From Bacteroidota bacterium (GTDB lineage: Bacteria > Bacteroidota > Bacteroidia > UKL13-3), in contig JAWXAU010000087.1 of NCBI GenBank assembly GCA_034439655.1, forward strand, positions 1-37,020: 37,020 bases of DNA, given 5' to 3'. Position numbers and translations under genes: made by a program. The notes below the pieces were generated by a model. That model was not told where the DNA came from. It searched no databases and worked only from the letters and a program-made list of their open reading frames with translations. This document shows, one piece after another, positions 23,064 to 36,435 of this stretch. The number at the start of each line of letters is the position of its first letter. Positions within the stretch are counted from its first letter, which is position 1.

Positions 23064-24617
23064 ATGTCAAACAAAATTTCCATTCTGTGGGCCGACGACG
23101 AGATTGACCTGCTTAAACCACACATCCTATTTTTAGAAAACAAAGGGTATGAAGTAATGCCAGTTACCAGCGGTGTTGATGCCGTTGAAGAAATAAAAAA
23201 GCGTGGTTTCGACTTAGTTTTTTTGGATGAAAACATGCCCGGAATTAGTGGTATGGAAGCACTTACACAAATTAAAGCAATCCGCGATGTACCTTGTGTA
23301 ATGATTACCAAAAGTGAGGAAGAATATATTATGGAAGATGCCATCGGTTCCAAAATTGCCGATTACCTTATCAAACCCGTAAACCCCAATCAGATTCTTC
23401 ACTCCATTAAAAAACTTACCGAAAACGCCCGACTCACTAGCGAAAAAACAAACCAATCATACCAACAAGAATTTAGAAATATCGGTATGATGCTCAATGA
23501 TAATCTCAACTTCGACGAATGGTTAGCGGTATATCGCAAATTAGTATATTGGGAACTTGAACTCGACTCGGTTGAAGACAACCAAATGGGTGAAATTATT
23601 GCCATGCAAAAGCAAGAGGCCAATCGCAGTTGGGCGAAGTATATCAATAATAATTATATGAAAATGATGAAAAACCCTGGAGAGGGCGGACTAATCATGT
23701 CGCATCAATTGATGAAGAATAAAGTTTTTCCATTGTTGGACCAACCGGATCCTGTATTTTTTATATTGATAGATAACCTGCGTTACGACCAATGGAAAAT
23801 GATACAACCTTTTTTGGCTAGCCATTTCCGTGTGGACCAAGACGACTTATATATGAGTATTCTACCCACTACAACACATTATTGTCGTAATGCTTTGTTC
23901 GCTGGCTTACCTCCTGGAGAAATTGAACGCAAATTTCCAAACCTATGGAGCAACGATGAAGAAGAAGGTGGTAAAAATCTGCATGAAGAAGAATTTCTTG
24001 CCGAAAATTTGAAACGCCAAGGTCATAATATCAAGATGAGTTATACCAAAGTGGTCAACCTCGACCAAGGCAAGGCGATGGTCGATAATGTACATAATAT
24101 GTTTCAAAACAAGCTGAATGTAATTGTATATAATTTTGTAGATATGTTGAGCCATGCCCGCACCGAAATGGGTATGATAAAAGAACTGGCAGAGGACGAA
24201 GCAGCTTATCGTTCCTTAACCCGCAGTTGGTTCGAACACTCTCCCTTATTTGAAGCCATCAAAAAAATTGCACAGAAAAAAGTTAAGGTTATTATCACTA
24301 CCGACCATGGTTCTATACGTGTAAAAAATCCCGTTAAAATTATTGGCGATAGAAATACAACTGCAAACCTTCGTTACAAACAAGGCAAAAACCTAAACTA
24401 TGATAAGCGTGAGGTATTTGAAATTCGTAACCCAAAAGAAGCCAGCTTGCCTTGCCCACACGTAAGCAGCACGTTTGCTTTTTGCTACGAAGACAATTTC
24501 TTTGCGTATCCCAATAACTATAATTATTTCGTAAATATGTATAAAGATACCTTTCAACATGGTGGTATATCGCTCGAGGAAATGTTGATTCCTGTCGCGG
24601 TGCTGAGTACAAAATAG
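23064..24617 (+). CDS. porX: PorX: response regulator with PglZ domain, type IX secretion regulator
   Basis: 517 residues. The N-terminal receiver (1-~120) has the acidic WADDE, phospho-acceptor Asp55 in VFLDENMPG and the conserved Lys in YLIKPVNP. A helical linker leads to a PglZ domain of the alkaline-phosphatase superfamily: ILIDNLRYDQW, Thr269-Thr271 (LPTTTHYC) at the nucleophile position, and TTDHGSI for metal binding. This receiver-PglZ layout is that of PorX, which in Porphyromonas and Flavobacterium controls or takes part in type IX secretion and has phosphodiesterase activity. It agrees with the T9SS-sorted protein at 34459-36435. No porY kinase is next to it. Confidence 0.95.
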   Translation: MSNKISILWADDEIDLLKPHILFLENKGYEVMPVTSGVDAVEEIKKRGFDLVFLDENMPGISGMEALTQIKAIRDVPCVMITKSEEEYIMEDAIGSKIADYLIKPVNPNQILHSIKKLTENARLTSEKTNQSYQQEFRNIGMMLNDNLNFDEWLAVYRKLVYWELELDSVEDNQMGEIIAMQKQEANRSWAKYINNNYMKMMKNPGEGGLIMSHQLMKNKVFPLLDQPDPVFFILIDNLRYDQWKMIQPFLASHFRVDQDDLYMSILPTTTHYCRNALFAGLPPGEIERKFPNLWSNDEEEGGKNLHEEEFLAENLKRQGHNIKMSYTKVVNLDQGKAMVDNVHNMFQNKLNVIVYNFVDMLSHARTEMGMIKELAEDEAAYRSLTRSWFEHSPLFEAIKKIAQKKVKVIITTDHGSIRVKNPVKIIGDRNTTANLRYKQGKNLNYDKREVFEIRNPKEASLPCPHVSSTFAFCYEDNFFAYPNNYNYFVNMYKDTFQHGGISLEEMLIPVAVLSTK

Positions 24618-28043: not shown

Positions 28044-28148
28044 GGTTCTCTTTGTTGTATAATTGTGCCGTCCTCTCTGCTGCCAATAATTGTTGAATTT
28101 TAAGTCAATTCATATATTATTCTTTATCAAATACTTGCAAATATAAAA

Positions 28149-28244
28149 CATTAATTTAGTCAGTCAATTGACTGAATTTACATTAATTCAGTCAGTCAAC
28201 TGACTGAATTAACATTAATTTGGTCAGTCAATTGACTGAATTAA
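28149..28244. repeat. Three 32-bp tandem palindromic units (candidate operators)
   Basis: Three units start at 28149, 28181 and 28213, each 32 bp, beginning CATTAATT and ending GAATTTA or GAATTAA. Each holds a palindromic core at an identical offset: TCAGTCAATTGACTGA at 28160-28175 and 28224-28239, and TCAGTCAACTGACTGA at 28192-28207. In the middle unit the symmetric arms extend to 14 bp (TTAATTCAGTCAGT and its complement). The spacing is about three helical turns. The last core ends 16 bp before a perfect -7 box. These are not CRISPR repeats, since no spacers separate them. Confidence 0.85.
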
Positions 28245-28255
28245 TGTTTTTGTGT

Positions 28256-28263
28256 TATATTTG
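28256..28263 (+). promoter_or_regulatory. -7 box TATATTTG for the ATPase gene
   Basis: Exact TAnnTTTG match 18 bp upstream of the ATG at 28282. The third palindromic core (28224-28239) covers the place where a -33 element would be. Confidence 0.6.
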
Positions 28264-28281: not shown

Positions 28282-29409
28282 ATGTATCATAGAAGTCTGC
28301 AAAAAGTAATCGAAAAAAATCTTTCCAAACAGAAGGTTTCAATACTACTGGGTGCTAGAAGAGTGGGCAAAACAGAAATCCTTCAGGCTATATATGAATC
28401 CAGAAAAGACACTACACTTTGGCTAAATGGTGAAGATAGAGATACCGAAGTATTATTGGAAAGACGGAGCGAAGCAAATTACAGAAAACTTTTAGCAGGC
28501 TATAACTTATTAATTATTGATGAGGCACAATATATAGAAGATGTTTCTCGAAAAGTAAAATTGATGATAGACACCATCAAGCCTTTGCATATCATTATTA
28601 CAGGTTCATCTGCTTTCGACTTGTCACAAATGGGTGAGCCATTAGTAGGCAGAAGTATTACGTATCATTTGTACCCGCTAGCTCAAATGGAATGGAAACA
28701 AAATGAGAACTTATTGCAAATAAAACAGAACTTGGAAGACCGTCTTATATATGGTAGCTACCCTGAACTGAGCAGTATAGAAAACGATGATGATAAAGCT
28801 ATCTATTTAAAGGAATTGGTAAATACTTATTTATTAAAAGATATATTAATATTTGAACAAATAAATAACTCACAAAAGTTAAGGGATTTACTCAAATTAA
28901 TTGCCTATCAAGTGGGCTCGGAAGTATCGTTGGATGAGATTGGAAAACAACTAGGGATGAGTAAAAATACAGTATCCAGATATTTAGATTTATTGGCAAA
29001 AGCTTTTGTGATATATAGTAGAAGTGGTTATAGTAATAACCTAAGAAAAGAAATTGTGAAAAGCAAAAAATGGTATTTTGTCGACAATGGTGTACGTAAC
29101 GCCATCATCAATGATTTCAGACCCGCAGCACTGCGAAGTGATATTGGCATCTTATGGGAACAATATATATTGGGCGAAAGAATTAAATATAACGAGTACA
29201 AACAAATACATACAGAAAGTTATTTTTGGAGAACCTACGATCAACAAGAAATTGACTTAATAGAACAGAAAAACAAAAAACTTTCTGCGTTTGAATGTAA
29301 ATGGAAAGATACTATAATAAAAGCTCCGACAGCTTTTACCAAATCATATCCTAAAGCTACATTCCAAGTTATTAATCATGAAAATTATTTAGATTGGATT
29401 GATGATTAA
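28282..29409 (+). CDS. AAA ATPase / DUF4143 family protein
   Basis: 375 residues. The N-terminal P-loop ATPase domain (AAA_14 type) has Walker A GARRVGKT at 24-31, Walker B LLIIDEAQ (Asp80-Glu81) and sensor-like IITGSSAF. A winged-helix segment follows (~205-240, EIGKQLGMSKNTVSRYLDLL), then the DUF4143 C-terminal domain. The latter carries a PD-(D/E)XK-like pattern, EID at 323-325 and ECK at 338-340 (D-x12-ExK). The family is widespread and poorly understood; some members are linked to mobile or defence regions, but no partner gene is adjacent here. It is preceded by the triple palindrome array. Confidence 0.88.
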   Translation: MYHRSLQKVIEKNLSKQKVSILLGARRVGKTEILQAIYESRKDTTLWLNGEDRDTEVLLERRSEANYRKLLAGYNLLIIDEAQYIEDVSRKVKLMIDTIKPLHIIITGSSAFDLSQMGEPLVGRSITYHLYPLAQMEWKQNENLLQIKQNLEDRLIYGSYPELSSIENDDDKAIYLKELVNTYLLKDILIFEQINNSQKLRDLLKLIAYQVGSEVSLDEIGKQLGMSKNTVSRYLDLLAKAFVIYSRSGYSNNLRKEIVKSKKWYFVDNGVRNAIINDFRPAALRSDIGILWEQYILGERIKYNEYKQIHTESYFWRTYDQQEIDLIEQKNKKLSAFECKWKDTIIKAPTAFTKSYPKATFQVINHENYLDWIDD

Positions 29410-33093: not shown

Positions 33094-34462
33094 AGAACAT
33101 ATTGACGATATTTTTAAGAATCATTTCGAGGATTACAAGCCTACACCTCCAAGCAATGTGTGGAGCCGAGTAAAGAGCGGATTGAATAATAATACCTCTG
33201 AAGAAACTTTATATAATAAATTCGATCAACACCAGCCACAACCACCAGCATGGGTTTGGGCAAGCCTTAGCAATATACTTAAAGGCCGTCAACGCATTAA
33301 AACCTACAAACGCATAGCAGCGGCTGCTTTGTTTTTTGCCGCACTTGGTGGTTTAATAGCTAGTCAATTTGCTGCTAACAATACTATAGATTCTTTGTTT
33401 GCATTTGAAAAAGATGACAATATCACTCTCAGCACCACACCAATAAAACCAATATTAGTGCAGCCAAAGATAACAAGTCTTGGCAAATCTACTTCAACTT
33501 CTGCTCCTAAAAACTATATATCATATACCCAAGTTCAAGCTTTTACCAATAATATTCCTGCCCATAATAATATAGTAGTGCCTGCGATTGAAAATACTGT
33601 TGCAAACGATTTCGAAGTCCCGGTTACAGCTCCAGAAATTTCTTATTTAGAGTCCATTTTTGCCAATATATCAATCCCTTCCATAGGCCACGGCACTCCT
33701 AGCATTATGCCAGAAAATAATTTCAACTACAAAGCTCCCCATTACAAAAGGCCTAACTTATTTGAAACTAATATAGAAATATTTGCAGGTGTTGCTAATA
33801 CTTTCCGCCAACTTGATAATAAATTGAATGCTACTGTCGCTTCAATACGAAAAGAATCAGAAGAATCTGCTGCCTCCTATCAATGGGGAATTAAATTTAA
33901 TTTGATTAAAAACAAAATATTATTCTCGAACGGCATAAGCATGTCTGAATACAACTACAAGGGTACTTATCAATTTCTAAAAGAGGACATGGTTAATTTA
34001 CATCCTAATTTCCCAACAGAGGTAAAAGGAGTTTATAAAGTAGAAGATTACCATGCGAAACAATTATCGAATAACAACTCCAATGTTTTAACCACCTATA
34101 AATTTATAAACTATAATACTGCTGTTGGATATTTGATTAACGCAGGTAGAAAATTAAATATAACACCTCAAATCGGGGTTGGTACAGGCTATTTAATGAG
34201 TAATATTGGACCAAAATTACAAGCTGGCAAACCTACCGAATACTCCTCAATGCCAGATGCTAATTCTCTTTCTTTAAATCAAAGATTAATGGTAAGTGGA
34301 GCAGTTGCACTAAAAGTTGATTTCAGATTATTGAATTCATTTAAAGTTGGAATAGAGCCGTATATAAACAAGCAAATAAACAAGCAGGATGTTACCTCGC
34401 CTCTTGGTGGTCAAAAACTTACCGCCAAAGGTGTTAACTTAACCTTTTCCTACAAATTTTGA
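33080..34462 (+). CDS. Possible trans-envelope protein: cytoplasmic head, one TM helix, C-terminal barrel
   Basis: 460 residues. Residues 1-75 are soluble and contain two copies of a short motif (YKPTPPSNVWSRVKSGL and HQPQPPAWVWASLSNIL). A basic stretch and a hydrophobic helix (~81-100, RIAAAALFFAALGGLIASQF) follow, then a Ser/Thr/Pro/Asn-rich linker (~105-220) and a barrel-like C-terminal half (~225-460) ending in aromatic VNLTFSYKF, as in outer-membrane strands. The head and helix sit where an anti-sigma factor is expected, so it may hold the sigma factor at the inner membrane and report from the outer membrane. That role is inferred from architecture and from overlap with the sigma gene. 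Confidence 0.75.
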   Translation: MSNDKEHIDDIFKNHFEDYKPTPPSNVWSRVKSGLNNNTSEETLYNKFDQHQPQPPAWVWASLSNILKGRQRIKTYKRIAAAALFFAALGGLIASQFAANNTIDSLFAFEKDDNITLSTTPIKPILVQPKITSLGKSTSTSAPKNYISYTQVQAFTNNIPAHNNIVVPAIENTVANDFEVPVTAPEISYLESIFANISIPSIGHGTPSIMPENNFNYKAPHYKRPNLFETNIEIFAGVANTFRQLDNKLNATVASIRKESEESAASYQWGIKFNLIKNKILFSNGISMSEYNYKGTYQFLKEDMVNLHPNFPTEVKGVYKVEDYHAKQLSNNNSNVLTTYKFINYNTAVGYLINAGRKLNITPQIGVGTGYLMSNIGPKLQAGKPTEYSSMPDANSLSLNQRLMVSGAVALKVDFRLLNSFKVGIEPYINKQINKQDVTSPLGGQKLTAKGVNLTFSYKF

Positions 34463-36435
34463 TATTTAAAAATAAAATATTTATAACCCTTTTTGCTGCC
34501 TTTATTTTTTCAATTGGTAGCAGTGTTGCTCAAAACTGTACTGCAAATTTTGAGTTCGATACAACTAACTATATAGTTACATTTAAAAATAAGTCTACTG
34601 CTGCAGGTATATATAAAAGCTATTGGAACTTAGGCGATGGTAATTATTCACTAAGCCCAAACCCAATACATGCTTATACAAATCCTGGCGAGTATTATGT
34701 GTTTCTAAAAGTAGAAGATGCTGCTAATAAATGCAAGGACATCTTCATGGATACAATTATAATAGTTGCAGCAAGCCCTGGATGCAAAGCAAATTATAAA
34801 ATTGGCGTATTGGGAGACTCACTTATTTGCAACAGTATCGCTACAGGAACTGACAGTTCTACTACCTACACTTGGTTTTTTGAAAATACAGTTTTCTCGA
34901 CGGACGAAAACCCTATTTGGAAATATACCAAAACGGGCATCAGAGCAGTTAAACTATTAATTCAAAGTCAAAATTGTACTGATTCAATAGAAAACGATAT
35001 ATATATAAAACCCAAATATATATGCGATGCCACTTTTGAAACTGTTACCAGTGCCGATACCACTACTTTTATAACAAAAACATATAATCCAAATGCGGTA
35101 TACTTTTGGGATTTTGGAGACAATACCACAACCACTGGCAATAGACCATTTCATGTGTACGAATATAATGGTACATACAAAGTAACGCTTACCATGGAAG
35201 ATACTGTTTCGGGCTGTGCCCAAACTTGGAGTAGCAATATTGGTATTTCTGGTCTTCCCGCTTTCAAAGTAAGCTATTCATATAATATCAATAAGAAAAC
35301 CGTTTCGTTCGAAGCTGCTGCTAAATTCAACCTTAAAAAAGAATTTATCTTTAGCTGGAAATTTGGAGATGGTGGAACCGAAACTGGAAATTTGGTTGAA
35401 CATACCTATAATAATTATGGAAATTATGATGTGGAACTTACTATTGTAGACACCCCTGTGTCGGCCGTTGTTACCAAAAAATTTACCATACTTGTTGTAA
35501 AAGATACCTCCAGCTATAGTTTGGGAGGGAAAATAAAATTAGATAATGGAACCCCCATTGATGAAGCTTTTGTATTACTAATAGAGAACGACAGTAATAC
35601 CAATAATCTACCACATGTGGTTGATACCACTTATATAACAGTAGCCGATTCGGGATTGTATTTCTTTAATCAAAAGAAACCAGGGCGTTATACTGTGAAA
35701 GTATTGATTAGCCCCAGTTCACTTTATTATAGTAAATATATACCAATCTATTTCGGCAACCGTATCTCTTGGAAAAACGCCCAATACTTTCAATTGACTC
35801 AAGATATTTTGCAATCGATAGAATTGAACCAAAAAACAATATCAACCAATGGATCTAATTCTATAACTGTGGTATTGACCATCGATAAATTAATAAAAGA
35901 AAAATACTTCCTGAAAAATCAATCCGCTACTTTATATGATGTGCTAGGGAAACCCCTACAAACAGGGCTTACCAACGCCCAAGGCAAAATTAAGTTCGAT
36001 AATTTGCATACCAGTATATATTATGTTAGATTTGATGTGGTAGGCAAAATTTCTAATGGGAAAAATGTGAGTTTTATTAAACAAGCTCCACCCACTGATA
36101 CCATATACTTTAATTTAGACGGATTCACGGTATCACCCTACGAAAACTTAAATACAAGTATTATACAAACTTCCACTTTAGCATATAGTGAAATTAGTTT
36201 ATTTCCAGTGCCTGCTAACGATCAATTGACTGTACACACCAATGTGAACCTGCTAGACCAAACACAAATTCAAATAATGATGATTGATGCCACAGGTCGC
36301 CAAGTGAAGAGGCAAGAAACCATCAACAAAGAATTTCACACCATCGATATTAGTAGTTTGCCACAAGGAATATACTGGTGTGTGCTTACTGGTAAAAACG
36401 GTTTTATTAAAAATATTCCAGTAGTTAAAAAATAA
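34459..36435 (+). CDS. Secreted multi-PKD protein with T9SS C-terminal sorting domain
   Basis: 658 residues. The start is TTG at 34459, overlapping the previous stop as TTGA; a signal peptide follows at once (IFITLFAAFIFSIGSSVAQN). Four PKD-like domains follow: ~27-110 (SYWNLGDGNYSLSPNPIHAY), ~113-190, ~190-270 (FWDFGDNTTTTGNRPFHVYE) and ~272-350 (FSWKFGDGGTETGNLVEHTY). Then come two carboxypeptidase-regulatory/Cna-B-like beta domains (~355-445 and ~475-560). The last ~80 residues are a T9SS type A sorting domain (ISLFPVPANDQLTVHT ... SSLPQGIYWCVLTGKNG). It should be exported to the cell surface by type IX secretion, and its role is likely adhesive or structural. Confidence 0.88.
   Translation: MIFKNKIFITLFAAFIFSIGSSVAQNCTANFEFDTTNYIVTFKNKSTAAGIYKSYWNLGDGNYSLSPNPIHAYTNPGEYYVFLKVEDAANKCKDIFMDTIIIVAASPGCKANYKIGVLGDSLICNSIATGTDSSTTYTWFFENTVFSTDENPIWKYTKTGIRAVKLLIQSQNCTDSIENDIYIKPKYICDATFETVTSADTTTFITKTYNPNAVYFWDFGDNTTTTGNRPFHVYEYNGTYKVTLTMEDTVSGCAQTWSSNIGISGLPAFKVSYSYNINKKTVSFEAAAKFNLKKEFIFSWKFGDGGTETGNLVEHTYNNYGNYDVELTIVDTPVSAVVTKKFTILVVKDTSSYSLGGKIKLDNGTPIDEAFVLLIENDSNTNNLPHVVDTTYITVADSGLYFFNQKKPGRYTVKVLISPSSLYYSKYIPIYFGNRISWKNAQYFQLTQDILQSIELNQKTISTNGSNSITVVLTIDKLIKEKYFLKNQSATLYDVLGKPLQTGLTNAQGKIKFDNLHTSIYYVRFDVVGKISNGKNVSFIKQAPPTDTIYFNLDGFTVSPYENLNTSIIQTSTLAYSEISLFPVPANDQLTVHTNVNLLDQTQIQIMMIDATGRQVKRQETINKEFHTIDISSLPQGIYWCVLTGKNGFIKNIPVVKK

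Follow-up and report, generated by a model that had tools for sequence, protein, structure and literature searches.

Tandem 32-bp dyads at the promoters of DUF4143 ATPase genes covary with the recognition helix of the encoded protein

A single-gene locus with an array at its promoter

The window, the whole 37,020-nucleotide stretch of Bacteroidota DNA analysed here, contains a gene for an ATPase with AAA_14 and DUF4143 domains (PF13173, 89 bits, and PF13635, 136 bits, both above cut-off), whose product is matched over residues 1–373 by the PADLOC model PDLC04789 (PDC-S01; E=3.6e-150), and, ahead of it, an array of three palindromic 32-bp units at a Bacteroidota-type promoter (Table 1). The gene stands alone, its nearest same-strand neighbours being valS and an E1 dehydrogenase gene, and is not part of a type II toxin–antitoxin pair. 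Elsewhere in the window lie a response regulator with a PglZ domain and PorX-like architecture (23064–24617) and a protein in which PKD domains are combined with a Por secretion C-terminal sorting domain (34459–36435).

Table 1. The ATPase gene, its array and its promoter, in window coordinates
Feature	Position	Strand	Basis
AAA_14-DUF4143 ATPase gene, 375 aa, matches PDC-S01	28282..29409	+	Pfam; PADLOC E=3.6e-150; AF2 pLDDT 89.4
Walker A GARRVGKT, residues 24-31	28351..28374	+	sequence and alignment
Winged helix, residues 198-266; recognition helix 228-241	28873..29079	+	AF2/DSSP
Codons of residues 227-229 (S-K-N), putative DNA-reading triplet, pairing with half-site C5, G7, T6	28960..28968	+	covariation, held-out test
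PD-(D/E)XK-like domain core, residues 288-340	29143..29301	+	alignment, secondary structure
Array, three 32-bp units (28147-28178, 28179-28210, 28211-28242)	28147..28242	.	sequence; unique in genome
Operator dyad 1, TTTAGTCA-GTCAAT-TGACTGAA, centre 28165.5	28155..28176	.	frame from orthologues
Operator dyad 2, TTCAGTCA-GTCAAC-TGACTGAA, centre 28197.5	28187..28208	.	sequence and half-site calling
Operator dyad 3, TTTGGTCA-GTCAAT-TGACTGAA, centre 28229.5	28219..28240	.	right half-site overlaps likely -33 TTG
Likely -33 TTG, 21 bp ahead of -7 element	28232..28234	+	sequence; sigma-70 consensus scan lists same TTG
-7 element TATATTTG (TAnnTTTG type, Bacteroidota-type promoter)	28256..28263	+	sequence; family-wide TAnnTTTG enrichment

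A fold search with residues 1–277 returned as the nearest matches the archaeal STAND/MNS-type ATPases PAB2304 (2qen, Z 16.3) and SSO1545 (2fna, Z 15.6), a likeness of fold at 18–19% sequence identity, followed by CED-4 and plant NLRs (Z about 14) and Avs proteins; Orc/Cdc6 (2qby) and DnaA were also matched. By fold match, then, the protein has the combination of ATPase and winged helix found in STAND-type proteins. A PDB sequence search with the protein gave no meaningful match, NCBIfam gave weak HTH matches only, and a literature search on SSO1545 and PAB2304 found no DNA-binding function, most of the papers returned using a DUF name in an unrelated sense. Residues 288–340 we take to be nuclease-like, from a reading of their motif and from general knowledge: across 29 aligned sequences D325 and K340 are invariant and E338 nearly so, and in the AF2 model the three lie on or adjoining strands 323–330 and 333–339. 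The expected D...(D/E)xK residues are thus conserved on the expected strands of a predicted PD-(D/E)XK domain, whose role would presumably be that of a nuclease.

The three units of the array are 91–97% identical. A sequence-only reading had placed palindromic cores at 28160, 28192 and 28224, and we recover all three, the one at 28192 with 1 mismatch and the spacings 32 and 32; when up to 3 mismatches are allowed, 4 core matches are found against 0.19 expected, and none of 100 shuffles reaches four. That reading took the middle unit, with its 14-bp arms around a different centre, as the deviant. The arms are real, and comparison with orthologues reverses the assignment: it is the middle unit's centre, 28197.5, that is conserved, and the centre as first read is 2 bp off in the outer units. 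The orthologues set the operator frame as TTnnGTCA-N6-TGACnnAA, centred at 28165.5, 28197.5 and 28229.5; the outer units also hold a second dyad, the core that was first read 2 bp away, because their N6 is GTCAAT. The units are not a repeat dispersed through the genome, since the 14-base core CAGTCANNTGACTG occurs at a single place in its 3.5 Mb, namely this array, and the 25-bp site, sought with up to 3 mismatches, is likewise found only here. Rfam has no match at the array. The -7 element lies 16 bp past the last core, as had been claimed, and the TTG taken as the -33 element follows the spacing rule for Bacteroidota promoters; it is overlapped by the right half-site of the last dyad.

Arrays and promoter geometry across the family

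Two Bacteroidota relatives, with proteins 90% and 89% identical to that of the window (L013 and L014), have the same valS and E1-dehydrogenase neighbours; at 68–75% identity the neighbourhood differs, and the gene and its array are the only common segment. We divided the family by identity to the window protein into subfamilies A (>=48%), B (36–48%) and C (<36%), and took 66 upstream regions of neighbouring genes as controls. Significant tandem repeats in the 200 bp before the start codon (those in which the best repeat exceeded the 99th percentile of shuffles) occur in 75% of subfamily A, 54% of subfamily B and 0/66 controls; among the significant regions, 41/41 of subfamily A and 39/44 of subfamily B have exactly 32 as their best period. 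An exact GTCA-N6-TGAC is present in 43/55 subfamily-A regions, and two of them stand 32 bp apart in 29/55, against 0/66 controls in either test. Among Bacteroidota relatives the tandem dyads lie beside a TAnnTTTG promoter, and their sequence differs in nearly every lineage while the register is constant. The array is therefore conserved upstream of orthologues, and the suggestion, made from the window, that dyad symmetry rather than exact sequence is preserved proves true family-wide.

TAnnTTTG occurs within 100 bp in 102/137 family genes and 18/66 controls. The -7 element is helically phased with the dyads (best period 10.25 bp, R=0.80, n=66, with 2–7 units per array in this set), a result whose significance is inflated by the kinship of the sequences; together with the exact 32-bp period, this phasing supports the earlier proposal that the sites are read from one DNA face. 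Across the family, the distance between the last dyads and the -7 element takes several values, and these dyads cover the -33 element, the spacer, the -7 element itself or the likely start site.

Subfamily C comprises mostly GPRQxGKTT proteins, two paralogues of the source genome among them, and its promoters often carry, in place of an array, a single extended palindrome that can reach 47 bp. Near-perfect 47-bp palindromes enclose the promoter at L009 (in the source genome; C115, about 930–975), L061 and L197, some of them extending to the start codon. Elsewhere in the source genome, a divergent DUF4143 paralogue (L012; C177, TRF 2652–2998) is preceded by 10.5 copies of a 33-bp repeat (TGTCACAAAGTTAGGG...) reaching up to the start codon, and a paralogue broken by one TAA (L010; C150, 728–936) by about 5.6 copies of a 32-bp unit with GCGATTACAATC. 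Dyads such as AAATTGCTTGTTTAGTAGCAATTT, read by eye, are found at the DUF4143 promoters of Patescibacteria loci (L294–L309).

Covariation of half-sites with the recognition helix

Half-sites were called in 81 genes without protein data, by a caller that favours A at position 4 and G or C at positions 5–7; since tandem dyads have a second set of symmetry centres, in the spacers, automatic choice of the centre can mix operator and spacer dyads. All 375 protein columns were ranked by normalised mutual information with each half-site position across these genes. The top columns were residue 227 for base 5, residue 229 for base 6 (0.69, the next column scoring 0.30) and residue 228 for base 7, three consecutive positions at the start of the recognition helix of the winged helix in the AF2 model. 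At base 5, D227 goes with G (36/36) and S227 with C (34/36); at base 6, N229 goes with T (42/43), K229 with G (17/17) and E229 with C (8/8); and at base 7, K228 goes with G (49/52), one apparent exception in these tables being a gene, L032, that the half-site caller mis-called. Contacts of Asn with an A:T pair, of Lys with G and of Glu with C are familiar ones. On a tree that leaves out the helix, the inferred number of changes is about 8 for base 5, 17 for base 6 and 19 for base 7; where closest relatives have different letters at base 6, they also have different residues at 229 in 22/23 pairs, against a background of 0.45. Within subfamily C alone (29 genes), residue 229 ranks top for bases 5 and 6 and residue 227 second for base 5, in a scan of few sequences that follow the base rules only in part. 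The triplet of the interrupted paralogue L010, D-N-Q, agrees with the code.

With the rules fixed beforehand, we turned to 47 new genes whose products are less than 80% identical to every protein of the training set (median identity to the nearest one, 54%). The predicted perfect dyad was present in 12 of the 25 genes with a determinate prediction, where wrong patterns scored 1.6% (permutation p=5e-5), and where an array could be called blind (17/47) the rules were right in 11/12, 9/10 and 6/7. The misses are mostly divergent members, which the code does not fully cover, because 13/25 testable genes have no perfect predicted dyad and a 32-bp array was callable in only those 17. That bases 5–7 covary with the recognition helix of the same protein, and that this pairing predicts operators in held-out genes, argues that the ATPase itself reads the array, and lends support to the self-regulation suggested when the locus was first inspected.

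The sites have few other locations. Across 295 genomes, a two-unit GTCA array adjoins a DUF4143 gene at 15/17 loci, one further locus at a contig end having been set aside; two arrays are orphans (L290, 4891–4936; L291, 4881–4926), with neither a DUF4143 gene nor a detectable relic of one. The extended site has 0–4 occurrences in each of 13 further genomes, mostly at the gene's own array, and the arrays of paralogues within one genome differ in bases 5–7 in 6/6 comparable pairs. Three genes (L287, L288 and L289) are flanked on either side by arrays of like orientation, and at L287 there are also tandem duplications of about 153 bp; of 44 genes tested for a downstream copy, 2 have one. The two orphan arrays and the three genes with a downstream array go beyond what plain promoter autoregulation explains.

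Proposed function and its alternatives

The array, its 32-bp register, its conservation through the family, a covariation that predicts unseen operators and the near-absence of other targets are established here by computation. We consider it highly probable, on the evidence of sequence, that the array is the operator of the DUF4143 ATPase itself, whose winged helix would read the sites in a circuit of autoregulation, most likely repression. As in an autogenous regulator, the sites lie at the gene's own promoter, and recognition by its own DNA-binding domain is indicated indirectly, by covariation and held-out prediction. The winged helix would read the half-site 5'-[7][6][5]A-3' through residues 228, 229 and 227, with one pair of subunits, presumably a dimer, on each dyad and neighbouring pairs aligned along the same face of the DNA at intervals of 32 bp, or three turns, where they may bind cooperatively; at the window's array we infer, as the sequence-only reading did, a dimeric binder, cooperativity and blocking of the -33 region. 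Binding would most likely repress the protein's own gene, because the last dyads lie within the footprint of RNA polymerase. Every member of the family would have its own operator specificity, and there would therefore be no cross-talk between paralogues of one genome.

Covariation cannot separate repression from activation, and the same data would suit a protein that activates its own promoter: STAND regulators such as MalT activate from arrays of sites, and the subfamily-A array ends upstream of the -7 element. We nevertheless regard positive autoregulation as rather improbable, given that the varied placement of the last dyads, from the -33 element to the likely start, fits steric repression better. 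A replication origin, an iteron set or a mobile-element end on which the ATPase acts, with promoter control secondary, seems very unlikely. The resemblance to Orc/Cdc6 and DnaA in the fold search, the gene and array as sole common segment between loci at 68–75% identity, and the rare orphan and downstream arrays would be in keeping with it, but a viral-contig scan with the window protein (one scan) found no relative, 15/17 arrays abut the gene's promoter, a downstream copy accompanies only 2/44 genes and the closest relatives keep the valS neighbourhood. Orc1/Cdc6, an AAA ATPase with a winged helix like the window protein, binds arrays of sites at origins (origin boxes); unlike these, the window's sites are placed in a promoter, with which they are in phase. 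Although terminator-like stems are found at the array, it is extremely improbable that its palindromes serve as an intrinsic terminator of valS or arose as a chance repeat: the array accompanies the ATPase gene through changes of neighbourhood, and its covariation with the recognition helix rules out either as the main function. A terminator role additional to that of operator is possible.

The array might instead be a private 'self' address that holds an ATPase–nuclease oligomer inactive on the chromosome, from which phage attack (through DNA degradation, replication or competition) would free it and turn the nuclease on, as in abortive infection. There are more units than a promoter needs (2–7, with L012 reaching 10.5 copies of its 33-bp repeat), the Walker and PD-(D/E)XK-like motifs are conserved, the fold is near those of STAND-type ATPases, CED-4, plant NLRs and Avs, and the protein matches PDC-S01. 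Against this, the arrays are at the promoter and phased to it, for which plain autoregulation accounts, and PDCs are described as unvalidated (PMC12988326); we think such an address unlikely, if worth keeping in mind.

Autorepression, our preferred reading, has precedents in type II antitoxins and restriction–modification C proteins, whose DNA-binding products likewise control or repress their own promoters (PMC12255303); unlike them, the window protein joins a DNA reader, an ATPase and a nuclease-like domain, and its family has exact 32-bp arrays with a specificity private to each gene. BrxR/CapW and RptR, transcriptional repressors of defence genes (PMC12255303), are encoded by separate genes, whereas here the effector itself is the proposed DNA reader. 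PDC-S01, a PADLOC single-gene phage defence candidate (AAA_14-DUF4143, COG1373-like) whose model the window protein matches, is reported to rank fourth in frequency among the 'defence' genes of prokaryotes, though unvalidated (PMC12988326), and to be the single locus that occurs most often in rumen genomes (PMC12988326, PMC13356809). The accessible text of these surveys gives no operator, DNA specificity or regulation for PDC-S01, and among the papers listed for DUF4143, COG1373 and AAA_14 we found nothing on function or DNA binding.

A defence role for the DUF4143 ATPase is possible, because of the PDC-S01 match, the STAND-like fold and the retained Walker and PD-(D/E)XK-like residues; more speculatively, ATPase switch and nuclease-like domain could constitute a phage-defence response that is released when repression is lifted. 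It is conceivable, if doubtful, that this is an abundant single-gene ATPase–nuclease family with private self-recognising arrays and an evolvable three-residue/three-base code, in which the array is the 'self' address that silences the nuclease until infection disturbs it. PDC-S01/DUF4143 is among the commonest uncharacterised prokaryotic gene families, a defence candidate without a mechanism, and through its arrays it gains a first function that can be tested, that of a sequence-specific self-regulator whose operator would be predictable from three residues. The family may thus offer a large natural set of orthogonal regulator–operator pairs, and its arrays and code a route to studying the co-evolution of DNA recognition and target sites.
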